IMG/VR virus record: IMGVR_UViG_3300020478_000001
Span: 1 to 43,905 of that record
Length of the DNA stretch: 43,905 nucleotides
Strand: one strand, 5' to 3'
Source: a virus
This document shows positions 1-43,905 of this stretch, piece by piece. Every line of letters starts with the position of its first letter. The stretch's first letter is position 1. The notes beneath the pieces are model-generated. The model saw nothing but the letters and a program-made list of their open reading frames with translations. It made no database searches and was not told the DNA's origin. Made by a program: the position numbers and the translations under genes.

Positions 1-83
1 GTAGATGGAGATACAGTAGATGTCAGAATTGATTTGGGTTTTGATGTGTGGCATAAATGTCGTGTACGACTTATGGGTATCAA
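1..83. repeat. Terminal direct repeat, copy 1 (83 bp)
   Basis: These 83 bases are identical to the last 83 bases of the window (43823-43905). A repeat of this length at both ends of a phage contig usually reflects an assembled circle or a circularly permuted genome rather than true short terminal repeats. It lies inside the nuclease coding sequence, which reads cleanly across the join, so the closure is biologically sensible. Confidence 0.95.
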
Positions 84-312
84 CGCTCCTGAGTCTCGAA
101 CCCGTGATAAAGAAGAGAAAAAACGAGGGTTGGCTGCAAAAGATTGGCTAATTAAACAACTCTCAGATGAAGAACATCCTTGCGAATTACAATCTTATGG
201 CAAGGGTAAGTTTGGAAGAATACTAGGAGAATTTTTTATTAACGGAAAAAATATAAATCAACTGATGGTAGACAATGGTCATGCGGTGGAGTACTTCGGT
301 GGCAAGCGGTAG
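1..312 (+). CDS. Staphylococcal-nuclease-like (thermonuclease) protein, 3' part
   Basis: This is the 3' part of a gene that begins at 43787 and crosses the circle join; the joined protein is 115 aa. It is an SNase-fold nuclease expected to cleave DNA or RNA with Ca2+. Visible family motifs are VVDGDTVDV (the metal-binding Asp region), RVRLMGINAPES (the Arg35 and Glu43 region of the classical enzyme) and GKFGRILG (the Arg87 region). The residue matching Asp40 is Asn in GINAPE, a substitution I recall in other homologs. It is shorter than the secreted enzyme (about 149 aa) and has no signal peptide, so it probably acts in the cell, in host DNA breakdown or recombination. It sits directly upstream of the secreted acidic protein gene. 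Confidence 0.85.
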   Translation, partial: VDGDTVDVRIDLGFDVWHKCRVRLMGINAPESRTRDKEEKKRGLAAKDWLIKQLSDEEHPCELQSYGKGKFGRILGEFFINGKNINQLMVDNGHAVEYFGGKR

Positions 313-315
313 TAA

Positions 316-2526
316 GTGTTTAATAAACTCGCACGAATATGTGTTGCATTAATTTTATTTATACCTTTTCCTGTATTAGCTGACCACGTTCCTACACAAC
401 CTCCATATAATCAATCAATAGCATTAGATACTACAACAGGTGATTTAACTATAGGTATATATACATCTGATGGTTTTGAAGATAGTCCACCAGAAAAATA
501 TACAATATGGTTTACAATTAGTGACGATACAATAGATACATCTACAGCTTATTGTGTATCTACTTCTTTTGGGCATACAGATAATCTTGTATGGAACTAT
601 TATGTATTTTCTTTAGAAGATTTACAAACATATTTTGAAAATCCATATGGTACATTTAGAACACAAATAAGGTCTGATAATGATACAGACAATAGTTATA
701 GCACATTAACTACAGAACAAACTATTACAATACCTAATCAATTGCCTTTTGTTAATTTAGGAGAATGGACAGCACCTACTACAACGTGCAATGATACATC
801 AATTCCACCACCAACACCTAATAATGCTATTAATGTATCTGTAAATTATCAAGGAGAAGATGTTTTTTTTGAGTGGGAATATGCAAATAATGAAACTGTA
901 GACGCACATTCATTTCATATAAATTACAGTTATGATAATACAAACTTTACAAGAGTAATCATAGACGATACAAGTTTAAGAGAATATACATTAAGTTATG
1001 AATATATACAAACAGGAACATTTTATTGGAATTTTTCTGTGTGTGGTGATTTAGATAATGGAGAATCATGCACAGAATCAGCTGCTAATAACTTTGAAAC
1101 TACTGAATATACTCCACCTACAACTACTCCACCTACAACATTAGCACCTGCACCACCTCCAGAACCTCCAGAACCTCCAGAACCTTATGTAGACCCGTAT
1201 GTTATAGAAGATAAAGAAGTTATAATGGATGACGGTAGTGTTGGTACATACAGTCAATCAGATATTGATGATGGTACTGTAGAAAGAGATAACGAAAGAC
1301 AAAAAAATGAAGAGCTTTATGGTTGTTATGTTACTGATATTGCTTTGGAACGTGGTGATTGCGATATACCTGAAGAAATTGTAGACACAACAGATGAAGA
1401 GATTGATGATTGGGATACAGAATATGAAGAAATTGAAGAAGAATACGATACCGAAGGAGAGTTTTCTGATGATGTTGTTGTGGTATTGGAAGTGGACGAT
1501 GACTATGAAGATGAAGACATTATTGAACTTACTGAAGAAGAAATTCTTGAACTTGAAAAACAAATGGAAATTGATGCTAAAGCATTGGAATTGGAAGAAG
1601 AACTTGAAATTTTTGAATTTGAAAGTGAAGAAGAAGCAGAAGAGTTTATTGAAACATATCTTGAAATTGAAGAATACATTGAAGAACTTGATGAATTTGA
1701 AATTGAAGAAGTTATTATTGAAGATATCCCTGAAGACATTGTTATAATTATTGAAGAAGATATAGTTGAGGAAATAATTGAAGATGAGTTGGACAAAGAG
1801 ATACCAGGAGATGACATTGTTACAGAAGATACAATTCCGACAGAAGATATTTTGGTTGAGCCAATACAGGAAGATGTTAAGGAAGAACCTTTAGAACTTA
1901 CTGAAGAGGAAGTAGCTATTGAAGTTGCTGAAATTGAAGAAGTTATTGATGTACCTATTATTGAAGAAGAATTAACTGAAGAAGAAGTTGTTGAAGTTAT
2001 TGAAGAATATGTTGAAGAACTTGAAACTGAAGAAGTTATAGAAGTTCTTGAAGAAGTTAATGATATTGGTGTACAAAATCTATCCCAAGCCACAGAAGAA
2101 ACACAGGTGGTTATACAGGCTGTAGTTGAAGAAGTTATTGAAGATGTAGAAGAACTTACTGAAGAACAAGTAGAAGTCGTTGCTGAAGTATTACAAGTTC
2201 AAACTGAAGACGTTGAAATTATTGCTGAAGCTGTTAAAGAAGATGAGTCAGTTGCTACTGCTGTAGAAGAATACGTAGAACGTGCTGTTGAAAACGAAGA
2301 TGTTGAAAACTATACATTAGCTGATGTTGTTACTGAGGTACAATTTGAAGAGTTTATAGATAATCCAATTGAAGTATTAACAGATATTGACATAAGTAAT
2401 ATAAGTATTACAAACATAAGTGATGACATGACAAGTGACCAGAAGGAAAAAGCACAAGAAGTTGTAGTTCCTGTAATTTTGACTAGAATAGCTAGCATGG
2501 CAGCTTTTGTATTTAGGAGAGGCTAA
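316..2526 (+). CDS. Secreted acidic repeat protein with FnIII-like domain and C-terminal hydrophobic anchor
   Basis: A 736 aa protein starting with GTG three bases after the nuclease stop. An N-terminal signal peptide is clear: basic start, then ICVALILFIPFPVLA and a likely cut before DHVP. Next come beta-rich domains, one FnIII-like (about residues 165-260), a Pro/Thr linker with TTTPPTT and PEPPEPPEP, and then about 350 residues extremely rich in Glu, Ile and Val in loose EEVIE/ELTEEE repeats. The C-terminus is a hydrophobic stretch followed by FRRG, like a membrane anchor. No catalytic motif is visible. It could be a host-surface or superinfection-exclusion protein, or a virion fibre; I cannot decide. 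The GTG lacks a strong ribosome binding site, but the signal peptide supports it. Confidence 0.7.
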   Translation: MFNKLARICVALILFIPFPVLADHVPTQPPYNQSIALDTTTGDLTIGIYTSDGFEDSPPEKYTIWFTISDDTIDTSTAYCVSTSFGHTDNLVWNYYVFSLEDLQTYFENPYGTFRTQIRSDNDTDNSYSTLTTEQTITIPNQLPFVNLGEWTAPTTTCNDTSIPPPTPNNAINVSVNYQGEDVFFEWEYANNETVDAHSFHINYSYDNTNFTRVIIDDTSLREYTLSYEYIQTGTFYWNFSVCGDLDNGESCTESAANNFETTEYTPPTTTPPTTLAPAPPPEPPEPPEPYVDPYVIEDKEVIMDDGSVGTYSQSDIDDGTVERDNERQKNEELYGCYVTDIALERGDCDIPEEIVDTTDEEIDDWDTEYEEIEEEYDTEGEFSDDVVVVLEVDDDYEDEDIIELTEEEILELEKQMEIDAKALELEEELEIFEFESEEEAEEFIETYLEIEEYIEELDEFEIEEVIIEDIPEDIVIIIEEDIVEEIIEDELDKEIPGDDIVTEDTIPTEDILVEPIQEDVKEEPLELTEEEVAIEVAEIEEVIDVPIIEEELTEEEVVEVIEEYVEELETEEVIEVLEEVNDIGVQNLSQATEETQVVIQAVVEEVIEDVEELTEEQVEVVAEVLQVQTEDVEIIAEAVKEDESVATAVEEYVERAVENEDVENYTLADVVTEVQFEEFIDNPIEVLTDIDISNISITNISDDMTSDQKEKAQEVVVPVILTRIASMAAFVFRRG

Positions 2527-2708
2527 TGTTAAAAAAGTTATGGGATTGGTTAATAGCCGCAATAAAAGAAACATTAAACCTTAGTTGGACTTTGGTTGGT
2601 TTAGTTATTGCTACGCTTACACTTACTGGTTCTGCACAACAAATAACAGGCCTTGCTACATTAATTACATTAGGTGTTTGGTTATTAACAATTGGTTTTA
2701 GAAAATAA
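2526..2708 (+). CDS. Small two-helix membrane protein, holin candidate
   Basis: A 60 aa protein whose ATG overlaps the stop of the acidic protein gene (TAATG). It has an amphipathic start (MLKKLWDWLIAAIK) and two hydrophobic stretches, about residues 18-34 and 40-57, ending in basic FRK. Size, two membrane segments and neighbours (another membrane protein and an endolysin candidate) fit a class II holin, but no family is recognised by sequence. It could equally be a small membrane partner of the upstream secreted protein. Confidence 0.6.
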   Translation: MLKKLWDWLIAAIKETLNLSWTLVGLVIATLTLTGSAQQITGLATLITLGVWLLTIGFRK

Positions 2709-2711
2709 ATT

Positions 2712-2924
2712 ATGGAAACAAAAATTAATTTAGGTCAAATATTACAAGGTGGTTTAGCTGCTTTAGTTGGTTGGCTCTTTAAAACTGTTAATGATTTACA
2801 ACAAGAAGTAGCAACACTTAAAGCACAAGTACAAGCTTATCAAGATTCTATTGCAGGATTTAATCAAAATCTAATAGTTATTGAAGAAGTTATTAGAGAA
2901 ATCTTATTTAAGGTAGGAGGATAA
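2712..2924 (+). CDS. Small membrane-anchored coiled-coil protein
   Basis: A 70 aa protein with a hydrophobic N-terminal segment (ILQGGLAALVGWLF, residues 9-22) followed by a predicted coiled coil (NDLQQEVATLKAQVQ and on). The layout resembles small phage lysis accessory or spanin-like proteins, though no lipobox is present. It lies between the two-helix membrane protein and a tiny Cys-rich ORF and its stop overlaps the next ATG (TAATG). Confidence 0.6.
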   Translation: METKINLGQILQGGLAALVGWLFKTVNDLQQEVATLKAQVQAYQDSIAGFNQNLIVIEEVIREILFKVGG

Positions 2925-2962
2925 TGGACTGTTGTGGTAACGGCTGTTGCGGAGGAGGATAA
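2924..2962 (+). CDS. Possible 12-residue Cys/Gly micropeptide
   Basis: A tiny ORF, MDCCGNGCCGGG, overlaps the preceding stop as TAATG and has AGGAGG eight bases upstream, the same arrangement as real genes here. Its own last codons (GGAGGAGGA) form the ribosome binding site of the next gene at 2967. Two CC pairs could bind a metal. It may instead be only a spacer that brings ribosomes to the next gene. Confidence 0.35.
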   Translation: MDCCGNGCCGGG

Positions 2963-2966
2963 TTAA

Positions 2967-3257
2967 ATGGCACATGAAACTAGAAAGAAAAATTTATTAA
3001 AAAAACACGGATTATCAGGTGTAAATAAACCAAAACGTACACCAAAACATCCTACTAAATCACATGTAGTATTGGCACAAGAAGGTCATACAATTAAATT
3101 AATAAGATTTGGACAACAAGGTGTTAGTGGTGCAGGTAAAAATCCTAAATCAAAAAAAGAAAAAAACCGCAGAAAGTCTTTTAAAGCAAGACATGCTGCA
3201 AATATTAAGAAAGGTAAAATGTCTGCAGCATGGTGGGCAGATAAGGTGAAATGGTAA
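2967..3257 (+). CDS. Short basic protein of a type seen in marine phages
   Basis: A 96 aa, very basic protein. The pieces NKPKRTPKHPTKSHVV, RFGQQGVSGAGKNPKSK, RRKSFKARHAANIKKGK and SAAWWADKVKW match a short family I recall from cyanophages and other marine phages, annotated only as a domain of unknown function. Charge and lack of membrane segments suggest nucleic-acid binding or a packaged protein, but this is inference. The start has an excellent ribosome binding site (GGAGGAGG). The end overlaps the next gene by seven bases. Confidence 0.75.
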   Translation: MAHETRKKNLLKKHGLSGVNKPKRTPKHPTKSHVVLAQEGHTIKLIRFGQQGVSGAGKNPKSKKEKNRRKSFKARHAANIKKGKMSAAWWADKVKW

Positions 3258-3841
3258 TGGAATTAGAAGTATTAAGAATTAGCTCACAAAAAGATTCTAC
3301 GTCTGGAATATTATTTGACGTTGTGAATGGTAAAAGAAATTTTCTTTGTTATACACTAGAAGATGAACAGCGTGATGTAAAAGTCTGGGGTGAAACAAGA
3401 ATACCTGCTGGTAAATATAAATTATCTTTAAGAAAAGAAGGTGGATTTCATAGTAGATATCAATCTAAGTATGGTGATATGCATAAAGGTATGATACATG
3501 TTAATGATGTACCAGGATTTGAGTATATCTTATGGCATACGGGTAATACTGACGAAAATACTGCAGGTTGTTTACTACTTGGTAACTCACAAACAAGTAA
3601 CCTTGTACAAAAAGATGGATTTGTAGGGTCAAGTGTTAATGCTTATAAGGATGTATACCCTTATGTTGCTGCAGCTATATCACAAGGTGATGTATGGGTG
3701 ACATATACAGACTACGATGGAACTGTAAATAGTAATGACAATTCAGACCTAAATAGTAATGACATAATGGAAAAGCTTTCTGAAATATCTGGAGAAATTC
3801 AAATATTAAATGCTAAAATGGATGGAAAAGAAATTATATAA
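3251..3841 (+). CDS. DUF5675-like protein, probable endolysin
   Basis: A 196 aa protein. Residues 4-150 match what I recall of the DUF5675 family: YTLEDEQRD, GETRIPAGKYKL, MIHVNDVPGFEYILWHTGN and TAGCLLLG, with His96 and Cys107 as likely active-site residues. Members occur in phages near lysis genes and are thought to act on cell wall, but the chemistry is not settled in my knowledge. The C-terminal 45 residues are a Asn/Asp-rich linker and a short coiled coil. A second in-frame ATG at 3257 is an equally possible start. Small membrane proteins upstream and an r1t-like holin downstream support a lysis role. Confidence 0.65.
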   Translation: MVMELEVLRISSQKDSTSGILFDVVNGKRNFLCYTLEDEQRDVKVWGETRIPAGKYKLSLRKEGGFHSRYQSKYGDMHKGMIHVNDVPGFEYILWHTGNTDENTAGCLLLGNSQTSNLVQKDGFVGSSVNAYKDVYPYVAAAISQGDVWVTYTDYDGTVNSNDNSDLNSNDIMEKLSEISGEIQILNAKMDGKEII

Positions 3842-5940
3842 TGCCAAAACCAGTATCGTTTACTAAAAGTAAGAAGCTTGGGGATACATTTGACCCTGAT
3901 ATACAACCTTGGAAAGATGACGAACAAGCTGGAGATAAATCTGCACAAGAACTTCAAGGTGATTTAGAAAGAAAAATTCAAGGTGGTCAAGATGTAACTC
4001 AATCTGATATATTTAGTGGCCAAACACAAGTAGGTGGTTCAAGTGGTGCTAAAGGATATAAAATAGAATCTCCTGAAGCAGGTAAACAATACCTTAAAGA
4101 AATAGCTGGTTTTGACATTGATATGGAAATAGAACTTAGACAATCTATAGCAGATGAATTATCAGGTAAACAAATGGAAATAGATGTTAGAAATAAACCA
4201 GGTGTCCAAAAAGAAGAGATAAGTCCTAAAATATCAGAGACTAAACGTACTGTATTAGGTAGTAAAGACAGGCCTTTTATTGATGAAAACTGGGTACAAG
4301 ACCCAGAAACTGGTGACTTTAAAAAAGTTAAAGGTGACGATTTAACAGGCAAAGTATCTAACTTACCTAATGTAATTGAAGGTTATAAAGGTATGGACTT
4401 AGCTAAATCAAAACAAGCCTTTAGAAATGCTGAAGAATTACAATCACTTAAAATTCAAAGAGCTGGAATTGTTAGACAAATTAATAAAGAAATGTACGAT
4501 GTTCATTATGATGCAGATGTATTAACTAGAACAGATGTAGATGAAGCTATTTCTATATCAAAAGGTGAAGGTATAACTGTATCTGAAGCTATTGTACGTA
4601 GTAAACAAACTGCAACTGAAAAAGTAGCTGCAACTGGAGATGCTTTTGAAATAAAAGAAGATTGGAAACAAACTGCTGCATATGATTATTCATTAATTGA
4701 AGAAGGCAATAAGTTAAGAGATTATCAAGAAGATGTAAAAGCAAACAGATTTCAAATGACAAATCTTGAGGACAGAATAGAAGCAACTGGTACTGCATCA
4801 TATAAAGAATATCCTAAAGGTGGAGGTAGAGGCGGAGTTGTACAACCTAATTTAGGTGGAGTTACTAATCGTACTAGCAGTAGTATGCAAGGTGGCGGAG
4901 TAAGAGGTTTGGGTTATAAACAAGCTGATATACTTTCCAGGTCTATAGTTCCATTTACACCAGAAATTAAAGATAATATAGCTGAACTACCTTTTGCTAT
5001 GTCTGATTATTCATCACAAGCTGAAAGAATATTAGGTAAACAAGCTGGTAAACAACATATGAAAGATATAGTTGATGATTCGATTGGAAAGCTACCTATA
5101 ACCGACCCAGACGGCCCTGTAAGAGGGGGTAAAGATTTTGAGGCAGTACTTGCCAAACATAGAAAAATAGAAGCAGCAGCAGCAGAATTTGCCATGATTA
5201 GAAAAGATGTTACAGATATATATGGTTCTTATAGTAAAACAAATGTAGAAAGATATTTTCAGGGTAAAGGACTTGCTTCGTCCGGAGCTTTCCGTGATGT
5301 TCGTAGTGCAACAATTGCTGGTGTAGATTTAAATAAATTGAACGTCCAAGGTTTGCCGGCCGTCAGTAAAAAAATGGAAAATAGAATAGCAAGTCAACCA
5401 AGATTTTATGAACATCAAAGTTCAATTACTATTTATGACCCTAAAGAATTTTCATCTACAGGCGGTGGTGCAAGATTAGAAGAAACAGTGCAACAAATAG
5501 CTGATACTGGTCAAGAAACTGATACAAGATATGGTTCAGGCCATGATGTAAAACAAGAAGGTCCTGCAGGTACTAAGAACCCACAAGTAGTTGTACCTAA
5601 TCCTGATGCACCTGATTACAATAAAATGGAAGCTAGACGTGAAGCAGCTTATAAGAAACGTGAAATATCTTTAGGAGGATTTAAACAAATAGATGACGTT
5701 AAAAAAGCGCAAAGAATTTTATCTACTCCTCCAGTAGGATTAAGTGAGGGAGATGTAGAAATACAAAAGAGTTTAAAGAAAGCAATTGCTGCTGCAGGTT
5801 CTTTAAAATTAGTTAAAAATTTAAGTACTATTTTAAATAAATCTAATCCAGCATTAAATGTTTTAAGTATGTTGCCTAAAAAAACTTATGAAGATATACT
5901 AAAAAAATCTGGTATAATATATAAAAAGCCACAGGCATAA
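3841..5940 (+). CDS. Unknown 699 aa protein
   Basis: Not recognised. It starts with TAATG overlap to the endolysin candidate. It is hydrophilic, rich in Lys, Gln and Asp, with a low-complexity N-terminus (GGQDVTQSDIFSGQTQVGGSS) and a glycine-rich patch near residue 325 (KGGGRGG, GGGVRG). No signal peptide, membrane segment or catalytic motif is seen. Its C-terminus has an Ala/Leu-rich helix and a basic tail. Size and place between lysis genes suggest a virion-associated or ejected protein, but nothing in the sequence proves it. A GC-richer patch lies near 5095-5130 and another near 5270-5360. Confidence 0.6.
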   Translation: MPKPVSFTKSKKLGDTFDPDIQPWKDDEQAGDKSAQELQGDLERKIQGGQDVTQSDIFSGQTQVGGSSGAKGYKIESPEAGKQYLKEIAGFDIDMEIELRQSIADELSGKQMEIDVRNKPGVQKEEISPKISETKRTVLGSKDRPFIDENWVQDPETGDFKKVKGDDLTGKVSNLPNVIEGYKGMDLAKSKQAFRNAEELQSLKIQRAGIVRQINKEMYDVHYDADVLTRTDVDEAISISKGEGITVSEAIVRSKQTATEKVAATGDAFEIKEDWKQTAAYDYSLIEEGNKLRDYQEDVKANRFQMTNLEDRIEATGTASYKEYPKGGGRGGVVQPNLGGVTNRTSSSMQGGGVRGLGYKQADILSRSIVPFTPEIKDNIAELPFAMSDYSSQAERILGKQAGKQHMKDIVDDSIGKLPITDPDGPVRGGKDFEAVLAKHRKIEAAAAEFAMIRKDVTDIYGSYSKTNVERYFQGKGLASSGAFRDVRSATIAGVDLNKLNVQGLPAVSKKMENRIASQPRFYEHQSSITIYDPKEFSSTGGGARLEETVQQIADTGQETDTRYGSGHDVKQEGPAGTKNPQVVVPNPDAPDYNKMEARREAAYKKREISLGGFKQIDDVKKAQRILSTPPVGLSEGDVEIQKSLKKAIAAAGSLKLVKNLSTILNKSNPALNVLSMLPKKTYEDILKKSGIIYKKPQA

Positions 5941-5941
5941 T

Positions 5942-6232
5942 ATGAGTGATTTATTTGAAAAAAATAATAGAGCAAGAAATACTGATGGGACATTCAAGAA
6001 GGATGTTGCGTGGACCCCTTGGAACGAAGCATGGGAGTATAAGATGAGTGAAGACTTGAAAGATATGTTAGAGCGTACTGCTTGGACATTCATTGAAGCA
6101 TTTATCGGAGCGTTAACAGTTGCCCCATTAGTTGGTGTAGAAGCTGAAACTATTCAGTTAGCTGCGTTAGCTGGCGGTGGTGCTGCATTAGCAGTAGTTA
6201 AAACATACGCTAAAAAACAAATTAGTAAGTAA
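5942..6232 (+). CDS. Holin, r1t-like
   Basis: A 96 aa protein with a hydrophilic N-terminal third, the segment LERTAWTFIEAFIGALTVAPL (two lines of hydrophobic residues, about 45-64) and a second hydrophobic helix ALAGGGAALAVVKTYA (about 77-92), ending in a basic tail. The pattern RTAWTFIEAF...AGGGAALAVVKT is typical of the phage r1t holin family common in Gram-positive, especially actinobacterial, phages. It would form pores in the inner membrane to release the endolysin. It follows the 699 aa gene by one base. Confidence 0.75.
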   Translation: MSDLFEKNNRARNTDGTFKKDVAWTPWNEAWEYKMSEDLKDMLERTAWTFIEAFIGALTVAPLVGVEAETIQLAALAGGGAALAVVKTYAKKQISK

Positions 6233-6234
6233 TA

Positions 6235-6609
6235 ATGGCTGCACAAGATAAAAAAGATTGGTCAGTGCATGGTATGACTGAGCGTGAAATGAAATCACGT
6301 ATACATTCACATAGGGAGATGGCTTATAAAGCTGCTGAAGTTGCTGTAGCTAATAAGGTTCCGTCTGCATTTTTTGGTAAAGACTTTAAGACTTGGGCTA
6401 AAAATAATCCTGATGCACCTTTCTTTAAACCAGTAGAAAAAGGTGGTACTGGTGGTTATGATGCCTTAGTAAAGCAAGCTGAAAGACACATTGGTGCGCA
6501 TAACAGATATGTCAATCGTACTAATACTGCTTTAAAGTTAACTAAAGCTTTAGAAGCTAAAAAAGCAGCTAAACTTAAAGCTGATTTAAATAAATTAATT
6601 GGGGGATAA
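6235..6609 (+). CDS. Small basic helical protein, unknown
   Basis: A 124 aa protein, not recognised. It is rich in Lys and Ala, with a helical C-terminus (KALEAKKAAKLKADLNKL). The middle contains SAFFGKDFKTWAKNNPDAPFF. It begins two bases after the holin stop and overlaps the 20 aa basic peptide ORF by TAATG, so the three are translated together. It could be a virion-packaged basic protein or a lysis accessory. Confidence 0.6.
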   Translation: MAAQDKKDWSVHGMTEREMKSRIHSHREMAYKAAEVAVANKVPSAFFGKDFKTWAKNNPDAPFFKPVEKGGTGGYDALVKQAERHIGAHNRYVNRTNTALKLTKALEAKKAAKLKADLNKLIGG

Positions 6610-7773: not shown

Positions 7774-8193
7774 TTAACCTCCCCAGCAGTGTTTACTGCT
7801 GTTCCAATGGTGCCAACCATCGTGTTTTATAAGCCAGGCAGCTACTGCAGTTGCAGTCTCTGGGTCTGTCCTTTCTTTTTGAATGTTTAATTTAGGCTTT
7901 AACCATGCCCATGTATTGTCGTTAAATTGCCACAATCCAATATCTTTAGTACCGTCTTTATTAATACCAACTGCGTTAGGATATCCACTGGACTCACAAT
8001 AGATAACCTTTAATGCTCGTACTCGAGTTTCATCCTTTTGGGAATCCAAGTCAAAGTATTTGTCAATTAAAGGTAGCCATTCTAAGACGTGTTCTATCAT
8101 ACGCTGGTCTTTGCGACATTGGATATACTCAGTCATATCTTCCACCATAGGTGAAGCCACTGTTAGAGTACAACTGAGTAATAATCCAATCAT
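7774..8193 (-). CDS. Lytic transglycosylase (SLT-type, lysozyme fold), exported
   Basis: A 139 aa protein with a short N-terminal hydrophobic signal (MIGLLLSCTLTVASP). The core matches lysozyme-like transglycosylases: IYCESSGYPNAVG with catalytic Glu67, then DIGLWQFND (86-92) and a C-terminal AAVAAWLIKHDGWHHW. It would cleave the glycan strand of peptidoglycan. Its place in the leftward operon, away from the holin and DUF5675 genes, suggests either a second lysin or a role at another stage. Cysteines at 8, 26, 66 and near the end may form disulfides after export. Confidence 0.8.
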   Translation of the reverse strand: MIGLLLSCTLTVASPMVEDMTEYIQCRKDQRMIEHVLEWLPLIDKYFDLDSQKDETRVRALKVIYCESSGYPNAVGINKDGTKDIGLWQFNDNTWAWLKPKLNIQKERTDPETATAVAAWLIKHDGWHHWNSSKHCWGG

Positions 8194-8195
8194 AT

Positions 8196-8516
8196 TTAGT
8201 TTGCTTGTAATTGCTTTTGTAACTTACGACTTCTAGCTTTACTTTTGCTACGTATTTGCCTACTATCAGCTGGCGTAGATACTAAGTAATATAGAAAATG
8301 TCCCTTTTCTTTTGCAGGTAACGTTACTATATCGTAGCCTTCTTGTCTTAAGTCATGTAAGACGCCACCAAATCTTGTGCATCTTAAATCAAATACAAAC
8401 TCTCCATTACTAATTGGGTCATTGTACCTTTCAGATTCTAAAACGTATCTAATAAGCTGGCTTTTGCTTCTAATAGTTTTAGGTATCTTTTTTCCTCTAA
8501 ATGATTTTACAATCAT
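8196..8516 (-). CDS. Helix-turn-helix DNA-binding protein
   Basis: A 106 aa basic protein. The pattern SQLIRYVLESERYNDPISNGEF...CTRFGGVLHDLRQEGYDIVTL followed by a beta wing (GHFLYYLV) looks like a winged helix of the phage HTH_39 type, in which a recognition helix precedes LR.EGY.I.T. The C-terminal tail is strongly basic (RQIRSKSKARSRKLQK). It probably regulates phage transcription. It lies between the transglycosylase and a zinc-binding protein. Confidence 0.6.
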   Translation of the reverse strand: MIVKSFRGKKIPKTIRSKSQLIRYVLESERYNDPISNGEFVFDLRCTRFGGVLHDLRQEGYDIVTLPAKEKGHFLYYLVSTPADSRQIRSKSKARSRKLQKQLQAN

Positions 8517-8531
8517 ATTCTTCCACCTTTC

Positions 8532-9077
8532 TTATAGTTCGTTACTAATTCCCCAGTCTTCTGGCAAATCAGTATTATCCATCCACCAAGATTTACGCCA
8601 TTTACCTGTGTGTCCACCGCAAATAGCTGGGTCATTGGTTGAACAAACAAAGTCAGGACTTCTCTCTGACTTTTTATTATTTCTATTATCGTAAACCATT
8701 TGCCCACAATAAGGACATTTTAAATCGTCACGATATTTTTTCTTTTCTTCCAATTTTTCTACCACATCTTGAACAACGTTTGACATATCAGATACTGTAA
8801 CAACATCAGCTTCTTCTAATGTTTTTACTTTTTCATCCAATGTCATTTGGTCAAAGTCGTTCGGTATCTTAGCTTCCATTGTACCAGATAACTTTTCTAA
8901 CATACTAAAGTATTTATTTAGTTGTTCATCAGACCAAGTTTCTTTGTTGTCTGGAAACTTTTTAAGACGTGCGTAATCATTAGCTTTACCAATAACATTA
9001 CGTCTGATATCTGCATCAGATATATGTTCTGTCATTGTTGAAACTGTTTGTGCTATGAATTTTATATCTTGTCCCAT
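8532..9077 (-). CDS. Zinc-finger protein, unknown
   Basis: A 181 aa protein. The N-terminal 125 residues are helical and end in a Glu/Lys coiled region (VVEKLEEKKKYRDD). The C-terminal part carries CPYCG, then VCSTND and ICGGHTG, a likely zinc-ribbon. It overlaps the Rad52-like gene as TAATG, so it may act with the annealing protein in recombination or replication. No enzyme motif is seen. Confidence 0.6.
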   Translation of the reverse strand: MGQDIKFIAQTVSTMTEHISDADIRRNVIGKANDYARLKKFPDNKETWSDEQLNKYFSMLEKLSGTMEAKIPNDFDQMTLDEKVKTLEEADVVTVSDMSNVVQDVVEKLEEKKKYRDDLKCPYCGQMVYDNRNNKKSERSPDFVCSTNDPAICGGHTGKWRKSWWMDNTDLPEDWGISNEL

Positions 9078-9658
9078 TAGAATGGTGCTTCTTTAAGGTC
9101 ATCATCATTACCTTCAGCATTTAATATATCATCCATAATATCATTCATACGTTGCTTATCTTCCTTAGTAGGTTTATTTTCTTTCTTACGCATATCAACT
9201 TTAGTGACTTCAACTTTAGCATCAGCCTCTGCCATTTCTTGCGTATAACCATCAGGTCCTACTGCTGTAGACTCTTCTTCTGATTGTGTACTACCAGACC
9301 ATAGTTCTACACCAAGACCAAACCTCATACAAGCACGTTTAAATGCATCTGATTCAGCATCTTTGAGATTACTACCATCATTAAACTTTACATTGTCTAA
9401 CTTAAAGGTATCGATATCACCAAAGCCAACAAAACTACCCATACCTTCAATAGTTATTGTTCCTTTAGCACCAACGATTCTTTTTTCCCCTTTATATGTG
9501 CTATATACTGGTTCACATTCCCAATTATATTGTACGCCACTGTCACGTAAACGTTCAACATAATGTGCATGTGGTACATAATCCCCAAACTTACCAGCAG
9601 GTGCTTTACGCACTAAATTAGCTGGAAAAGGGGATAGTAATTTATTGGTATCTACCAT
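9077..9658 (-). CDS. Rad52-like single-strand annealing protein
   Basis: A 193 aa protein of the Rad52/Sak type of phage annealing proteins. It would bind single-stranded DNA and anneal complementary strands during recombination-dependent replication. Family signs: the N-terminal HAHYVERLRDSGVQYNWECEPVY, a strand with GAKGTITIEGMGSFVGFGD, and the hallmark NLKDAESDAFKRACMRFGLGVELW (about residues 97-120, shown here with its key Asp, Arg and Gly positions). The C-terminal 70 residues are charged and disordered. It is near the usual size of such phage proteins. A hairpin with the recurring 19-base motif lies 32 bases upstream of its ATG. Confidence 0.75.
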   Translation of the reverse strand: MVDTNKLLSPFPANLVRKAPAGKFGDYVPHAHYVERLRDSGVQYNWECEPVYSTYKGEKRIVGAKGTITIEGMGSFVGFGDIDTFKLDNVKFNDGSNLKDAESDAFKRACMRFGLGVELWSGSTQSEEESTAVGPDGYTQEMAEADAKVEVTKVDMRKKENKPTKEDKQRMNDIMDDILNAEGNDDDLKEAPF

Positions 9659-9683
9659 CTTTACTCCTTTTCATTTCTTTGTA

Positions 9684-9715
9684 GGCCTTAATCAACCCGG
9701 AGGAGGAATAAGGCC
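9684..9715 (-). promoter_or_regulatory. Intergenic hairpin with recurring motif (copy D)
   Basis: GGCCTTA (9684-9690) and TAAGGCC (9709-9715) form a perfect 7 bp stem. The loop region 9690-9708 on the + strand is AATCAACCCGGAGGAGGAA, one of six related 19-base segments in gaps of the leftward operon. There is no U-run, so it does not look like a terminator. It sits in the leader of the Rad52-like gene. Confidence 0.6.
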
Positions 9716-9721
9716 GTTCTC

Positions 9722-9880
9722 TTATTCTTGAGTTAGTACTTCCAATTGAGTTATACCCCTTTCGATTGGTATAAACTTAACTCCGTCATCATCATTAATA
9801 ACGAAGAAAGGTCTACTACCTAATCCAGCGTACTCAATTGCAACTTTTCTAACTTTAGAATTGACATTGTTATCTGACAT
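9722..9880 (-). CDS. Small unknown protein, 52 aa
   Basis: A 52-codon ORF starting at 9880 with MSDNNVNSKVRKV and ending TQLEVLTQE. It has a beta-rich look (RPFFVINDDDGVKFIPIE). It fills the gap between the metallophosphoesterase and Rad52-like genes in the operon direction. Not recognised. The ribosome binding site is weak (GGATAT), so confidence is moderate. Confidence 0.55.
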   Translation of the reverse strand: MSDNNVNSKVRKVAIEYAGLGSRPFFVINDDDGVKFIPIERGITQLEVLTQE

Positions 9881-9896
9881 ATCCTATCCAATTGTA

Positions 9897-10961
9897 CTAT
9901 ACATCATCTAAATTAACAAGGTATTCAGCTGTCACACCGTCACCATCTTTACAAAATAGTAACCATTGGCATGGTCTGCCCATACTTGCTAACTGTTCAA
10001 GTGCATATGTATTGTAGCTTTCAGTACTTCCGTTAACCCACAACCTAATACCATTAAGATACATAGTGGTTGGTGTATGAAAATGGCCAGCTACTGCCAT
10101 ATCAAATGGTTCCATCATACCGTTAGCTGCTAGTGTCTTCCATCCTTGTAGCTTCTTACCAAAGCCATACCATGGAAATCCACTAAATCCTCTGACATTA
10201 TCGCCATGCCATAATAAAAACTTACAGTTTTCTCCTAAATCTGCTATGTCAAACCAATGGTTATCACCTTCACTATCAGGTATAGTCCATTTAATTCGCT
10301 TTTCGTCCCTATATACCATTGACATTATGCTTCCCAGCATTCTGTCTGCGTTACTGTCTGGATGATAATCTTTCCTTGACCTTCCACCAAGGTGTCCATG
10401 ATTACCAATTACCCAATGAACATCTACTTCTGCGAAGTTGGCAAGTAATATGTCAAAAAATGATGTCATTATACGTGGACCGTCTATTGTCACTTGTTTG
10501 TATAATGAACTATCAATTAAATGTGATTGCCCTGGAAATATTAATTCACCTTCAATAATATCTCCTACTGCAAACACCGCTACTTTGTTCACTGGATGTG
10601 ATTTACGTTGTAGATTTGTTAACTCAACTATTTTTTTAGCGTATTCAATTACTCTAACTTCAGCAATTTCAGAATTATATTCCGGTGTTACTTTAGCTAA
10701 TTGAATATCAGATAAGACTGCTATTGCAATCTCTTCTTTTTTAGAACGCTTAGATAATATTGGCTTTGGAATTTTAGGTTTATCCCATAGCTTTAAGTTA
10801 GTATCTACTGCTTGATATACTGCTTCAACCATATCAGCTTTTTTATTTTTAGCTTTATCTAATTGTTTTAAAAGTCTTAAGTTATCTTTCTTAAGTTCTT
10901 GTATTTGTTTAGACTCAGCTTCAGCAAGTATATCGTCTATGTTTTTATCTTTCTTAGCCAT
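9897..10961 (-). CDS. Calcineurin-like metallophosphoesterase
   Basis: A 354 aa metal-dependent phosphoesterase. The dinuclear metal site motifs are in order: LSDIQ (Asp85; the usual His two residues on is Gln), GDIIEGE (Asp134), GNHGH (Asn187, His188), WHGDN (His252) and GHFHT (His293, His295). The N-terminal 50 residues form a coiled coil. Phage members of this family are often nucleases or phosphatases acting on DNA ends; an Mre11/SbcD-like role beside the annealing protein is plausible but inferred. The replaced motif I His may change which bond is cut (phosphodiester rather than monoester or exonuclease activity). Confidence 0.85.
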   Translation of the reverse strand: MAKKDKNIDDILAEAESKQIQELKKDNLRLLKQLDKAKNKKADMVEAVYQAVDTNLKLWDKPKIPKPILSKRSKKEEIAIAVLSDIQLAKVTPEYNSEIAEVRVIEYAKKIVELTNLQRKSHPVNKVAVFAVGDIIEGELIFPGQSHLIDSSLYKQVTIDGPRIMTSFFDILLANFAEVDVHWVIGNHGHLGGRSRKDYHPDSNADRMLGSIMSMVYRDEKRIKWTIPDSEGDNHWFDIADLGENCKFLLWHGDNVRGFSGFPWYGFGKKLQGWKTLAANGMMEPFDMAVAGHFHTPTTMYLNGIRLWVNGSTESYNTYALEQLASMGRPCQWLLFCKDGDGVTAEYLVNLDDV

Positions 10962-11191
10962 TAACTTAACTTCTTTAAGTAGTTAGTCATAGCTGTTTCT
11001 GATATTTTAATGTTGTAATTTTCTTCTAAAATTCTACACAATGTGTATGGTTTTAGTTTTACTCCATCATTGATTACCCTATTTTTGACTGCTGCCCAAA
11101 ACTCTTCAGCTTCATCAGTAATTTTATTTTCTACAAAATTACCTTTCAAACCGTATTCAGCTTCAGACAACAGCTTATCTATATCTGTCAT
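10961..11191 (-). CDS. Small HTH-like protein
   Basis: A 76 aa protein counted from the ATG at 11191; an upstream in-frame TTG would add six residues but lacks support. It reads as helices: DEAEEFWAAVKNRVIND, YTLCRILEENYNIKISETAMTNYLKKL. The last 35 residues look like a helix-turn-helix with SETAMTNY as recognition helix. It overlaps the phosphoesterase start (TAATG), so the two may act or be regulated together. Confidence 0.55.
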   Translation of the reverse strand: MTDIDKLLSEAEYGLKGNFVENKITDEAEEFWAAVKNRVINDGVKLKPYTLCRILEENYNIKISETAMTNYLKKLS

Positions 11192-11239
11192 ACAAGCAAG
11201 TATAATCAAATATAAATGAATGTAAAGGTATACAAGAGA

Positions 11240-19930: not shown

Positions 19931-21844
19931 ATGCCAGAAAAAAGTACCCGAGTTATATGCGCTGGAAGCGGTTGTAAGAAGCGTCTAAAAGGCAAACAGA
20001 GGAAGTTTTGTAGTACCACATGTAATAAAAGAACCTGGGCGCAATCCCAGAATGGTGAAATTAAAGAGAAACCCATCAATAAAGAAATCAAATCAGATTC
20101 GGGCGATTCAACAAGTGTACGTAGGGGAAATTTTTATGACGAATTTAAAGAAAAATACGGGGAGGAACTCGCAGCAGGCACCCTTACTGTGGGTGAGATA
20201 GCGCAAGCTTTAGGCACCACTAGTGCCACAGTATCCAGAATGGCAGCAGCATACAAAATAGATGTTAAGAACGAAGTAGCTGCAGAAGATTGGGAGATAT
20301 CAGACGAAACTAAAGCAAGTTTAAAGAATTTTTCGAGCTTCCGCAATAGATATTTTGCTACAGAAACGGGCGAAAAATATGAGACTGCTGATTTTCATAA
20401 AAACTGGATAAATAATATTATAGATGCTATAGAAGGGGGTAAAGAATTAATTATATTAAGTCCTCCTAGACATGGCAAAACAGAATTATTAATACATTTT
20501 GCTGTGTATCAGATAATGAAAAACCCAAACATAAGGATAATGTGGGTAGGTGGAAATGAGGACATTGCAAAGAATGCTGTATCAGCAGTATTAGAACATC
20601 TTGATGATAATGAAAGACTTCAAGAAGATTTTTGCGCACCTGGGAAAAAGTTTAAACCAGATAATAGGTCAGGTAAGATGTGGTCACAGAATCAATTTAC
20701 TGTAGGTACTAGAACAGTACCAGGTATTAAATCACCAACTATGGTTGCTGTAGGTAAAGGTGGTAAAATCTTATCAAGAGACTGTGACTTAATAATTGCA
20801 GACGACATTGAGGACCACCAAACAACAATGCAACCTGGTGCAAGAGAAAATACTAGGCAATGGTGGACAACAACTTTATCTTCAAGAAAAGAGGAACATA
20901 CTGCTGTAGTTGTAATAGGTTCAAGACAACACTCAGATGATTTATATCATCATCTTTTAGCTAATGATTCATTTGACCAAATAGTTGAAACAGCACATAA
21001 TCTTGATTGCCAAATACCAGACCATGAAGTAGAAGAACATGTTGAATGTATGTTATGGCCAGGCAAAAGAACTTTTAAATGGCTTAATACAAGAATGCAA
21101 GCAGCAGAAACTACAGGTGGTAGAAAAATATTTGAAATGGTTTATTACAATCAGGCCTTTGTTGAAGGTACACAGATATTCACAATGAATATGATTGACC
21201 AATGTATGAGGCCTGACTTAGTTATTGGGCAGGTACCAGGCAACTTATATTTAGTTGCTGGACTTGACCCTGCTTCTTCTGGTTATCAAGCAGCTGTACT
21301 ATGGGGCATTAATGCACCTAGAGGTGAACTTTTCTTAATTGATATAGAGAATAGACAAGGTGGGGGAGTGAAGCATGCTTTACAGATTATGTCTGATTGG
21401 TTACACAAATATGATTTACAACATTGGATTATTGAAGAAAATGGATTTCAAACAGCTATTAGACAAGATGATAAAATAAAAGAATTTGTTTTAAGAGGTG
21501 GTATAACAATGCAAGGACATGTAACTGGAAATAATAAGCATGACCCTATGTACGGTGTTGGTTCAATGGCTGGATTATTTGAAAACCAAAAAATACACTT
21601 ACCTGTTGGAGATTCTGAATCACAAGCTAAAGTTAATGCCTATAGACAACAGTTACTTTATTTTGATGGAAAGCCAGTTTCTCAGCGAAACAAAGAAAAA
21701 ACTGATATAGTTATGGCAGGGTGGTTTCCTATGAAAGTCTTCCGAAGAATGAATAAGGAACAACTCGCAGGCATGGGACTAGATTATGAGGCTAGTTACA
21801 CAGATTTTGGATATACAGAGTATAATGAGGCACCATGGGGATAG
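19931..21844 (+). CDS. terL: Terminase large subunit with N-terminal zinc ribbon and HTH
   Basis: A 637 aa packaging motor. The N-terminus has a Cys4 ribbon (Cys10, 15, 27, 31; CAGSGCKK and KFCSTTC), then a helix-turn-helix at about 84-110 (TVGEIAQALGTTSATVSRMA). The ATPase follows: P-loop-like SPPRHGKTE (177-185), Walker B LIIADDIED (287-295) and coupling motif VVVIGSRQHSDD. The nuclease begins at AGLDPASSG (about 442) with IIEENG and DIVMAGWF carrying further acidic residues. No separate small terminase was recognised; the N-terminal DNA-binding part may take that role. First gene of the rightward packaging and virion block; overlaps portal by 10 bases. Confidence 0.93.
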   Translation: MPEKSTRVICAGSGCKKRLKGKQRKFCSTTCNKRTWAQSQNGEIKEKPINKEIKSDSGDSTSVRRGNFYDEFKEKYGEELAAGTLTVGEIAQALGTTSATVSRMAAAYKIDVKNEVAAEDWEISDETKASLKNFSSFRNRYFATETGEKYETADFHKNWINNIIDAIEGGKELIILSPPRHGKTELLIHFAVYQIMKNPNIRIMWVGGNEDIAKNAVSAVLEHLDDNERLQEDFCAPGKKFKPDNRSGKMWSQNQFTVGTRTVPGIKSPTMVAVGKGGKILSRDCDLIIADDIEDHQTTMQPGARENTRQWWTTTLSSRKEEHTAVVVIGSRQHSDDLYHHLLANDSFDQIVETAHNLDCQIPDHEVEEHVECMLWPGKRTFKWLNTRMQAAETTGGRKIFEMVYYNQAFVEGTQIFTMNMIDQCMRPDLVIGQVPGNLYLVAGLDPASSGYQAAVLWGINAPRGELFLIDIENRQGGGVKHALQIMSDWLHKYDLQHWIIEENGFQTAIRQDDKIKEFVLRGGITMQGHVTGNNKHDPMYGVGSMAGLFENQKIHLPVGDSESQAKVNAYRQQLLYFDGKPVSQRNKEKTDIVMAGWFPMKVFRRMNKEQLAGMGLDYEASYTDFGYTEYNEAPWG

Positions 21845-23619
21845 AAAATTTAGATATTAAGAATTATAGAGAGATAGTTGATAATGCTACTCAATTAGTT
21901 AATGGCAAACCGTCAAAAGAAAGACAAGTTCAAAAAGCTAGAATTAAAGCAATTTTGAATGGTGGAGTTGAAGGTATGAAAGCATTGCTTGGTGAAAAAA
22001 TGGAATCATCAGATGCTGATTTATTACCAGCTCCAAACATGTTGCAGTCAGGTATTGACCGACTTGCACAAAAGATTTCAGGTATACCACAAGTTCGTGT
22101 AGATATATTAAATCATAATACATCTGACAGAGCTAAATTCAGAGCAGAGAAGTTAGAAAGAATTGTTACAAGTTATGACGAGAAACAAAATCTTTCGCTA
22201 CAATTAGGACAGGCAGCTAGATGGTTGCCAGGTTACGGATACTGCGCCTGGATAATAACGACACGCACAGATAAAAATGGTTATATATATCCTACGGCAG
22301 AACTCCGTGACCCGTACGATACTTTCCCAGGGAACTTTGGCCCTGACCAACAACCACGAGAACTTGCAGTACTAAGAAGAGTACCTAGATATAAACTTGC
22401 ACAATTGTATCCTGAATTTGCAAAAGAAATTTTAAATCCTGATGAATCAGAAACTAATGAAGCATCATATGGACCTGGTGGTGTAGGACAACAATATGAA
22501 ACTGATAGACAATCTAATTGGGAAGATAATACAGGACAAGGCGTAAGAATTATTGAATACTATGACGTAGGTGGTACTTATGTAGTATTCCCAGAAAAAA
22601 ATATGATTTTAGATTTTATTCCAAACTTCTTGTCTGGTACTCCATTTATATTTATGAAACGATTAGCTTTTGATGAACTCAAAGGACAATACGACCACGT
22701 AATAGGCCTTATGGCTATGATGGCAAAAATAAATATTATGTCAGCTATAGCTATGGAAGACTCAGTATTTACAGAAACAAACATATCTGGTGAATTAGAA
22801 TCAGGCCAATACAGAAAAGGTAGATTTGCTGTTAACTATTTAGCACCAGGTACACAAGTTTCTAAACCACAAAACAATATACCTTATCAATTATTTCAAC
22901 AAGTAGATAGATTAGAAAGACAACTGCGTATGGTAGGTGGTTATCCAGTTACTGACGATAGCCAATCACCTAATTCATTTGTTACAGGAGCAGGTTTATC
23001 AGAATTAAATAGCACTATGTCATTAATGATTAATGAATATAGAGAAATAGTTAAACACGGTTTGCAACAAATGGATGCTAAAAGATTAGAGATGGATACT
23101 TTATTAGCTGCACAATTTCCAGAATTACAAAAAAAACCTATAACAGGTTTTTACGCAGGTACAAGTTTCTCTGAAAATTATGCACCATTATCAGATATTG
23201 CAGGTGAATATAGAACAAGACGTGTTTATGGTGTTATGGCCGGATTTGATGAACCACAAAAAATTGTTACTGGTTTGCAATTGTTACAAGCTGGTGTTAT
23301 AGACACAGAAACGTTACAAGATAATATTGATGGTCTTGATAATATAGCTAAAGTACAAGAACGTATTAGAAAAAATAAAGCTGAAAATGTTTTATTTGAA
23401 TCTGTATTAGCTAGGTCAGCTCAAGGTGATATGGCTGCAACTATGGCTGTTATAGCTATTTATGAATATCCAGGTGAAATGACAGATATACTTAAGATGT
23501 TTTACACACCACAAGAACCACAATTACCACCTGCAGAGCAAGCAGTAATAGAACAACAAATGATGCAAGAACAAGCAGGCCCACCAAGCGTAGCTCAAGC
23601 TTTAGGCGGTGGTATGTAA
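21835..23619 (+). CDS. Portal protein
   Basis: A 594 aa protein directly after terminase, in the position and size of a podovirus-like portal. Typical parts: LLPAPNMLQSGIDRLAQKISG near the N-terminus, ELRDPYDTFPGNFG, RVPRYKLAQLYPEF in the clip/wing part and a long helical C-terminus, ending in a Gln/Ala/Pro-rich tail (EQQMMQEQAGPPSVAQ). It forms the ring at the capsid vertex through which DNA passes. The part around 22240-22400 is clearly GC-richer than the rest of the gene. Confidence 0.85.
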   Translation: MGIENLDIKNYREIVDNATQLVNGKPSKERQVQKARIKAILNGGVEGMKALLGEKMESSDADLLPAPNMLQSGIDRLAQKISGIPQVRVDILNHNTSDRAKFRAEKLERIVTSYDEKQNLSLQLGQAARWLPGYGYCAWIITTRTDKNGYIYPTAELRDPYDTFPGNFGPDQQPRELAVLRRVPRYKLAQLYPEFAKEILNPDESETNEASYGPGGVGQQYETDRQSNWEDNTGQGVRIIEYYDVGGTYVVFPEKNMILDFIPNFLSGTPFIFMKRLAFDELKGQYDHVIGLMAMMAKINIMSAIAMEDSVFTETNISGELESGQYRKGRFAVNYLAPGTQVSKPQNNIPYQLFQQVDRLERQLRMVGGYPVTDDSQSPNSFVTGAGLSELNSTMSLMINEYREIVKHGLQQMDAKRLEMDTLLAAQFPELQKKPITGFYAGTSFSENYAPLSDIAGEYRTRRVYGVMAGFDEPQKIVTGLQLLQAGVIDTETLQDNIDGLDNIAKVQERIRKNKAENVLFESVLARSAQGDMAATMAVIAIYEYPGEMTDILKMFYTPQEPQLPPAEQAVIEQQMMQEQAGPPSVAQALGGGM

Positions 23620-35705: not shown

Positions 35706-36830
35706 ATGGCAAACATTAGTTTGACAAATAATTCAATTTACTCCCAGAAGATTAACAACTTTTCTGGTGAGTTATTCCGTGTAGGTGGTCAAAGAACTCC
35801 TTTCTTATCAGCAACAGGAGGATTAAACGGAGGTAAGGTTTTACAATCTACTTTCTGGCAAATCCAAGCTGCTGATAGTGCTGTTGTTTCTACTGAGCCA
35901 ACAAAAGGCCAAGAAGGCGCACAGCCAACAGAGTATCTTGGAAGAGATAGAGTTGCATTTACAGGTGTAACTCAGGTCTTCCATAAAGGTGTAAAGATGA
36001 CCTACACAGCTATGGCAACTTATCAACATCAAAATCCATTTGATTTGTCAGCAAACATTGCTGCTTCATCTGATGGTGACGGAACAGTTACAGCTGCAGA
36101 CAAATTAGGTCTTGCTGGCGGTAACCCAATCGTTGACGAGTTCTCAGAGCAGATGTCTTTAGCACTTGAAAAAGTGGCTAGAGAAGTAGAATGGTTCGCA
36201 TTTAATGGTACATTCGCTGATGGTGCAAACGTCACCCCAGGTGCAGGTACTAGAGAAATGCGTGGTATTTCAGAATACACTTCCTTAAATGCTAACTCTG
36301 ACAACACTGTAGCTCCAGTAGCAACAGCAGGTAACATTTATTGGAACAAAGCCACAGGTAACGGTGCAACAGGTGCAAACCAAGTTCTTTCTTGGGATGC
36401 TATTGCAGGTTCTCTAAAGAGACTTTATGATGCACACGCTCCTATGGTTCAACCAGTTCTATGCGTAACTCCAAAGCAACTTCTTGACCTAAACAAAGAG
36501 TTAGTAAATAACTCATTGTCAGGAACTTTAGGAACAATTGTCCCTAGAGATAGAAATATTGCTGGTATTGATGTTGATACAATCGTAACTCCATTCGGTT
36601 CAATCGGAATGATGGTTATTGACCCTAACATTATGCCTGACAATAATGCATTTATCTTAGACTTTGCTTTCATACAACCAGTATTTACCAATATCCCTGG
36701 ATATGGTACTGTGTTCGTGAGAGACTTAGACCAAGATGATTACGCAAGAGTTGGAAAAGCAATCTACATGGAAATGGGATACGACTTCGGTCCTCCTTCA
36801 TACCATCTAAAGATAGCTGGCGTAGCTTAA
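35706..36830 (+). CDS. Major capsid protein, SU10/DUF5309-like (HK97 fold)
   Basis: A 374 aa protein with a very strong ribosome binding site (GGAGG). N-terminal SGELFRVGGQRTPFLSATGG, middle VTQVFHKGVKMTYTA and the C-terminal GIDVDTIVTPFGSIGMMVID, then FVRDLDQDDYARVGKAIYMEMGY fit the SU10-type HK97-fold capsid family I know as DUF5309. It forms the icosahedral shell. Codon use differs from the neighbours, with many more C-ending codons, as expected of the most abundant virion protein. A strong terminator follows 24 bases after its stop. Confidence 0.85.
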   Translation: MANISLTNNSIYSQKINNFSGELFRVGGQRTPFLSATGGLNGGKVLQSTFWQIQAADSAVVSTEPTKGQEGAQPTEYLGRDRVAFTGVTQVFHKGVKMTYTAMATYQHQNPFDLSANIAASSDGDGTVTAADKLGLAGGNPIVDEFSEQMSLALEKVAREVEWFAFNGTFADGANVTPGAGTREMRGISEYTSLNANSDNTVAPVATAGNIYWNKATGNGATGANQVLSWDAIAGSLKRLYDAHAPMVQPVLCVTPKQLLDLNKELVNNSLSGTLGTIVPRDRNIAGIDVDTIVTPFGSIGMMVIDPNIMPDNNAFILDFAFIQPVFTNIPGYGTVFVRDLDQDDYARVGKAIYMEMGYDFGPPSYHLKIAGVA

Positions 36831-43456: not shown

Positions 43457-43462
43457 TATAAT
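43457..43462 (+). promoter_or_regulatory. Putative extended -10 promoter
   Basis: TGCTATAAT, an extended -10 box with exact TATAAT, lies 11 bases after a stop and only 8 bases before the ATG at 43471. Transcripts from it would start at or near that ATG, so the first ORF may be leaderless and the main products would be the following genes through the circle join, including the nuclease and the lysis block. Confidence 0.5.
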
Positions 43463-43470
43463 ACTTCACC

Positions 43471-43611
43471 ATGGATTATTTTATAGGATTTTTAATTGGT
43501 TATTTCTGTAAATGGTTTTTTAATTACTTAACAAGTATAAGTGAAATTAAGATACCAGATAGATACAATAACGAAGATTGGGACTGGCTATCTACAGATG
43601 ACATCCAATAA
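43471..43611 (+). CDS. Small membrane protein, 46 aa
   Basis: MDYFIGFLIGYFCKWFFNYL is a hydrophobic N-terminal segment, followed by an acidic tail (NNEDWDWLSTDDIQ). It overlaps the next ORF by 14 bases. It could be a small holin-like or regulator peptide; not recognised. Confidence 0.5.
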   Translation: MDYFIGFLIGYFCKWFFNYLTSISEIKIPDRYNNEDWDWLSTDDIQ

Positions 43612-43783
43612 CGGATATACCAACAAAGAAATGCTTCATTTCATTAGAGTTGAAGTACAAGAGTTACATAAAAGAATAGATTTTTTACACGAAAAAATAA
43701 ATAAATCTCCTACTAGAGGAGAAATTGTTGGTTGGTTAGTTGGATTAAGTAGCACAGCTGCCTTCATAAATACTATAATGTAA
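43598..43783 (+). CDS. Small coiled-coil / membrane protein, 61 aa
   Basis: Counted from the ATG at 43598 rather than the upstream TTG. MTSNNGYTNKEMLHFIRVEV leads into a helix VQELHKRIDFLHEKINKS and then a C-terminal hydrophobic segment GWLVGLSSTAAFINTIM. A soluble coiled coil with one C-terminal membrane anchor is seen in small lysis and tail-anchored phage proteins. It ends three bases before the nuclease ATG. Confidence 0.55.
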   Translation: MTSNNGYTNKEMLHFIRVEVQELHKRIDFLHEKINKSPTRGEIVGWLVGLSSTAAFINTIM

Positions 43784-43786
43784 CTT

Positions 43787-43905
43787 ATGAAATACTATTA
43801 CGGGGTAGAAATTCTTAGGGTTGTAGATGGAGATACAGTAGATGTCAGAATTGATTTGGGTTTTGATGTGTGGCATAAATGTCGTGTACGACTTATGGGT
43901 ATCAA
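43787..43905 (+). CDS. Staphylococcal-nuclease-like protein, 5' part
   Basis: The N-terminal part of the nuclease gene whose remainder is at 1-312. Starts MKYYYGVEILRVVDGDTVDV at 43787, giving 12 codons before the repeat. It shows the true start, so the coding sequence is complete on the circle. No clear Shine-Dalgarno site is seen in front of it; coupling to the upstream ORF (three-base gap) is likely. Confidence 0.85.
   Translation, partial: MKYYYGVEILRVVDGDTVDVRIDLGFDVWHKCRVRLMGI
43823..43905. repeat. Terminal direct repeat, copy 2 (83 bp)
   Basis: Identical to bases 1-83. See the first copy; the unique genome length is 43,822. Confidence 0.95.

Follow-up and report, generated by a model that had tools for sequence, protein, structure and literature searches.

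Absence of GATC from a complete phage genome

The virus record IMGVR_UViG_3300020478_000001, a stretch of 43,905 bases that was analysed as a whole and is called the window, contains not a single GATC. What removed this word from the genome, and what keeps it out? The window comprises the entire, circular genome of a phage (bases 1-83 are identical to 43823-43905, as computed from the end overlap), and the count was zero also across the circular join, which is crossed by a staphylococcal-nuclease-like gene. An earlier note on this DNA had claimed that GATC was wholly absent where about 130 sites were expected from composition. The count agreed with this claim: 135.6 sites were expected from base composition, 113.5 under a maximal-order Markov model and 115.5±12.3 in simulated second-order sequences. 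No other of the 256 tetramers was as strongly depleted as GATC (z=-12.7); CATG came next (z=-9.4; 64 observed, 161 expected).

In the coding sequences, shuffling of synonymous codons within each gene yielded 90.0±6.0 GATC sites, and never fewer than 72 in any of 200 shuffles, compared to none observed (z=-15). This result ruled out codon bias as the cause. The missing word was visible in the choice of codons, as the earlier note had described for Asp: ahead of C, Asp was encoded 72 times by GAC and never by GAT, whereas ahead of A, G or T there were 725 GAT and 148 GAC codons. Similarly, Ser following xGA was encoded 24 times by AGY and never by TCN, although TCN accounted for 514 of the 789 Ser codons overall.

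Unrelated palindromes were not equally depleted, and the condition under which the earlier note regarded its claim as refuted did not hold. AGCT, TGCA, GGCC, GTAC, ATAT and TTAA were at or above the expectation of the codon null, and AGCT, TGCA and GGCC exceeded the expectation of both the Markov model and the codon null. A moderate depletion under the codon null was found for CATG, AATT and TCGA. CATG occurred at approximately 0.4 of the Markov expectation and 0.7 of the codon null, TCGA at approximately 0.6 and 0.4, and CTAG at 0.6 and 0.85, respectively. Six-base palindromes were tested only for words whose core is present; of these, GAATTC (0 observed, 12.8 expected), TCTAGA (0 and 8.6) and GGTACC (1 and 8.7) were nearly absent. 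A general avoidance of palindromes was ruled out by these tables.

Extent of the absence and regains of GATC

Relatives of the window, with identities from approximately 52 to 100%, were gathered by searches with the terminase large subunit, which was also the basis of the tree. The initial searches of viral sequences, together with that of genome contigs, yielded 128 partly overlapping loci (L001-L128), all of them free of GATC where 3,637 sites were expected. The 13 genome-scale contigs contained no GATC compared to approximately 1,525 expected, and a second clade contained one compared to 1,961 expected. This lone site (L191:1085), found in a locus where 34 were expected, represents either a real site or an assembly error. 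In total, 175 non-redundant loci (2.02 megabases) contained 84 GATC sites compared to 5,069 expected; 164 of these loci were GATC-free, and 79 of the 84 sites were confined to six loci of a few lineages that had regained the word. The absence of GATC characterises the phage group.

The third clade included loci in which the frequency of GATC ranged from about half of normal to normal (L273-L276, L314, L327/L328/L334-L336 and L340). The inspected contig L276 carried structural genes only, and the remaining contigs of the GATC-bearing lineages were short. On the terminase tree, well-supported branches forced at least four switches between presence and absence of GATC. L327 and L279 were 94.7% identical over 4,250 bases, but L327 contained 11 GATC sites (24 expected) and L279 none (31 expected); at most of the L327 sites that could be aligned, L279 has GACC instead. 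CATG was absent in the L276 and L327 groups as well as in the GATC-free sisters of both.

Substitutions were counted between GATC-free relatives, compared in 20 pairs (248,502 aligned bases with an average identity of 89%). GAC was replaced by GAT in 7.6% of comparisons before A, 10.5% before T and 14.3% before G, whereas a change from GACC to GATC was found in none of 2,075. In the GATC-bearing lineages this change occurred freely (7 of 27 and 9 of 21 in two pairs). These data showed that the absence of GATC is upheld by continuing purifying selection at the DNA level.

Lineage-specific loss of other palindromes

CATG, ACGT, GCGC, GGCC and TCGA were eliminated independently in particular lineages. 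CATG occurred twice in L021/G005, where 122 sites were expected, and ACGT was missing from L011/G003, L084/G006 and L087/G007. In L347, GATC, CATG, ACGT, TCGA, GGCC and GCGC were all missing, GTAC and AGCT were normal and CTAG was mildly low. In these and other sub-lineages a second or further palindrome was wiped out while near sisters retained it; CATG was lost in this way in L005-L009, L021/G005 and L076, and GGCC in L182-L226.

Similar gaps were seen elsewhere. The distant relative Caudovirales sp. ct2KA10 (L412; OX376640.1, 1-39112) lacked GATC (125 expected), CATG (127), AGCT (177), GGCC (62) and CCGG (39). Actinomycetia phage DSL-LC01 (L411; OQ999401.1, 80001-129469) lacked TTAA (56 expected) and ATAT (51) and had normal GATC. 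Two unrelated contigs of the metagenome-assembled genome (MAG) RS345 (L365 and L375; guanine-plus-cytosine (GC) content 0.43-0.45) had no AGCT where 16 and 29 sites were expected, and are probably other phages with a different banned word.

Methylases and nucleases of the phages

Family scans detected no D12, N6/N4 or C5 methylase in the window and no Dam-family methylase in 13 phage records. A phage Dam or other methylase shielding the window was ruled out, since none was found in it. Among 34 phage records, one carried an N6/N4 methylase and one a C5 methylase. Restored GATC was seen in neither of the loci read for these sole two methylase genes (L383:1492-2250 and L385:1501-2103). The near-absence of methylases showed that the phages do not shield GATC by methylation of their own. 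No member of a restriction-endonuclease family was recognised in the window scans or among the conserved genes, several of whose proteins lack an assignment.

Candidate hosts and their enzymes

The closest annotated relatives of the portal and capsid proteins belonged almost only to phages of Actinobacteria. Streptomyces phages made up 29 of the 31 records matched by the portal protein in tblastn, and the major capsid protein had its closest annotated relatives in Mycobacterium, Propionibacterium and Bifidobacterium phages. The best matches of the terminase and the exonuclease were likewise actinophages, the exonuclease being 42% identical to its counterpart in Streptomyces phage Dagobah (tblastn). 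Two relatives of the window were binned with the Actinomycetota MAG RS345. A GC content of 0.336, noted together with these relatives, fits Candidatus Actinomarinales, for which a GC content of approximately 32.5% has been reported (PMC7771536). We infer a low-GC marine actinobacterium as host, with about even chances of being right. The Dam/MutH setting of coliphages, in which the earlier note had placed the absence, did not fit: the closest annotated phages were mostly actinophages, and the MutH family was missing from 42 genomes of the candidate order.

Strong Dam-family methylases were found in six of 42 genomes from the order of RS345. For three Dam-family methylases examined, the DpnII methylase was the nearest solved structure. 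The methylase of L304 adjoined a Type II restriction enzyme (PADLOC); those of L306/L307 were located beside a divergent PD-(D/E)XK protein in one case and a convergent GIY-YIG protein in the other. A DpnI-family protein was present in one of the 42 genomes. These methylases, their neighbours and the DpnI-family protein indicate that putative GATC-type systems are present among the candidate hosts, although only a minority of the genomes, which are incomplete, carry them.

In one candidate host genome (L303:647-2433), a Dam-family methylase adjoined a DarT1-type NADAR antitoxin, an arrangement which suggests a defence island. Most of the 42 genomes further encoded an N6/N4-type DNA methylase of approximately 280 amino acids, mostly in single copy (L387-L406), with no nuclease adjoining it in the loci read. 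It is likely a core orphan methylase of the candidate order and was not used as evidence, having neither an adjacent nuclease nor an established specificity.

Host restriction at GATC as the probable agent

Type II restriction is marked by a palindromic, lineage-specific, reversible and near-absolute loss of words. The losses described here follow this typical pattern and the phages mostly lack protecting methylases; therefore, host restriction at GATC is favoured as the agent and is considered highly probable, the enzyme presumably being of Type II. A host enzyme acting at GATC, as proposed in the earlier note, thus remains the best-supported reading of an absence that is clade-wide, motif-specific, reversible and palindromic in the absence of a phage methylase, both the host and the enzyme being putative.

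According to this model, the hosts of the phage lineage would long have carried a restriction activity at GATC, and even a small number of sites would cause a phage genome to be cut upon entry. If every site carries some chance of killing the phage, selection would continue until zero sites are left. New sites would be purged mostly by the use of GAC for GAT before C and of AGY for TCN after xGA. In a lineage no longer meeting the enzyme, synonymous drift from GACC to GATC would occur within approximately 5-15% divergence, during which the remaining avoided palindromes would still be absent.

Several observations weigh against this reading. RS345 also holds unrelated phage contigs, which makes the host no more than a candidate. 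The co-binned contigs L363-L367, considered as a test of host-driven avoidance, were T4-like or differed in GC content; they were uninformative and weakened the host evidence from RS345, because they probably derive from other hosts. WhiB was absent from the 34 phage records and was dropped as a host marker. In the comparison with candidate host genomes, as proposed in the earlier note, Dam-family methylases were present, but in fewer of the genomes, which are incomplete, than a near-universal ban suggests, and the GATC nuclease families DpnII and MutH/Sau3AI were absent from all 42, which removed them as candidates for the host nuclease. GATC was only mildly low in a second RS345 genome sample (666 observed, 854 expected), and the host Dam-family methylases are, judged from their sequences, no more than candidates for GATC specificity.

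The ban on GATC is near-universal whereas other words come and go. Either one old and very widespread host GATC system accounts for this difference, or the hosts may hold opposed systems cutting bare and methylated GATC, by analogy with the DpnI/DpnII situation in streptococci (PMC12707154). Under opposed systems methylation would be useless as an escape, leaving deletion of the word as the sole one, and the other lost palindromes would form a barcode of the current hosts of each lineage; this elaboration is speculative and rather improbable.

A non-classical host attack at GATC, whether by a nuclease that requires methylation (of the DpnI or Mrr kind) or by a system based on phosphorothioates, is an unlikely alternative to classical host restriction. 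Mrr-type restriction of methylated GATC has been discussed for haloviruses that lack GATC while their hosts have plentiful GATC (PMC7230728, PMC3622292), and the DpnI-family protein of the candidate order would be a suitable nuclease. However, that family was found in just one genome, and a methyl-dependent attack needs methylated phage DNA, whereas these phages have no Dam.

It is very unlikely that the phages themselves encode a GATC nuclease which destroys host DNA, their own genomes being safe only through the absence of sites. Such a nuclease would account for a near-absolute ban held over much of the clade and could be sought among the conserved early proteins without assigned function. 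The scans of the window, however, recognised none, other conserved proteins resemble a transglycosylase, a winged-helix protein, an annealing protein and an exonuclease, and the extra palindromes banned in different lineages would each need a new nuclease.

It is highly improbable that GATC was removed by a bias of neutral or mechanistic origin, such as mutation, codon usage, the structure of DNA or mismatch-repair signalling at GATC. AT-rich genomes can show a skewed oligomer content, and coliphages under-use GATC. This explanation is contradicted by the break with the synonymous-codon null, by near-normal GATC in sister lineages and unrelated contigs of the same collections, and by the lack of the MutH family in the candidate order. 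GAC to GAT changes were common except ahead of C, and mutation bias, codon preference and DNA structure do not yield this contrast between GACC and other GAC codons.

Although every sequence is a metagenome assembly, an artefact of assembly, library preparation (for example with GATC-cutting enzymes) or database was rejected as having almost no probability, because sister loci of the clade and unrelated contigs of the same collections carry normal GATC; many independent IMG/VR samples were also concordant, and codon choice is adjusted to avoid the missing word.

Gene content of the phage genome

The features of the window are listed in Table 1. The conserved early-gene block comprises genes for a transglycosylase, a winged-helix protein, a 181-amino-acid protein, an annealing protein, the exonuclease and an 82-amino-acid protein; a 52-amino-acid open reading frame within it (9722-9880) was not universal among the 13 genomes. 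The CobS-like ATPase and its neighbour look, from their sequences, like a MoxR/vWA or CobS/CobT pair. The window further encodes a protein of 2,016 amino acids. DNA polymerase, helicase, primase and DNA methylase were all unrecognised among the scanned genes, and bases 1-20000 gave no match when the phage collection was searched for near-identical sequences.

Table 1. Positions and supporting evidence of features in the window.
Feature	Position	Strand	Evidence
GATC-free circular phage genome	1..43905		0 GATC; 83-base identical ends
Small SET-domain protein	6672-6974	-	PF00856; present in 8/13 genomes
Conserved early-gene block	7774..11209	-	gene clustering, kept in 13/13 genomes; family scans
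Metallophosphoesterase exonuclease	9897..10961	-	phrog_284; tblastn
CobS-like AAA ATPase and adjoining 505-amino-acid protein	11307-13572	-	pair kept in 12/13 genomes
Terminase large subunit	19931..21844	+	phrog_38, 3.8e-66
Portal protein	21835..23619	+	by homology (tblastn)
Major capsid protein	35706..36830	+	phrog_1328; tblastn

Comparison with known systems

The Streptomyces phages Immanuel3 (Beephvirinae) and Dagobah are among the nearest annotated relatives of the window, the former for the terminase and portal proteins and the latter for the exonuclease. Immanuel3 has a similar gene order with a very large open reading frame between portal and capsid genes. Both differ in that identities reach only approximately 22-42% and GATC is normal (265 observed and 283 expected, and 315 and 308, respectively).

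Complete loss of GATC attributed to restriction is already known, and the window adds another case; the loss is extreme, as the earlier note had stated, but not unprecedented. In staphylococcal phage K all GATC sites have been eliminated, which was attributed to Sau3A restriction (PMC6532042). Here the same word is wholly lost from a lytic phage and host restriction at GATC is the explanation. The phages are unrelated, however, and enzyme and host are known for phage K whereas we infer them for the window; moreover, the ban on GATC in the window extends over a deep clade of uncultured marine phages, in which regains are on record.

The haloviruses of the HF1 group and SH1/PH1/HHIV-2 lack GATC and CTAG (PMC7230728, PMC3622292). 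They share with the window's clade the group-wide absence of GATC and the loss of an extra palindrome in single members (AGCT in HRTV-7). In contrast, they are archaeal viruses with CTAG banned, whereas the window's phages show no more than a mild depletion of CTAG, and their extra missing words vary by lineage (CATG, ACGT, GCGC, GGCC, TCGA).

What the present case adds is the depth to which the clade reaches, a measured rate of GACC to GATC change (0 of 2,075) and the motif-by-motif gains and losses. With one word almost totally banned from the greater part of a clade, and regained between 95%-identical sisters, these phages preserve an exceptionally clear evolutionary trace of restriction pressure among uncultured microbes of the ocean. 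The words that a lineage lacks could be used to fingerprint the restriction enzymes of its hosts; this would aid in assigning hosts to uncultured phages and in discovering restriction systems not yet described.

Avoidance of recognition sites is widespread in non-temperate phages, and GATC was under-represented in 46 of 46 phages whose hosts encode such enzymes (PMC6286503). The avoidance of palindromic Type II sites is common to that survey and the present clade. The survey covered sequenced phage-host pairs, whereas the clade of the window, for which the host is putative, combines total removal of the word with a history that is resolved on a tree.

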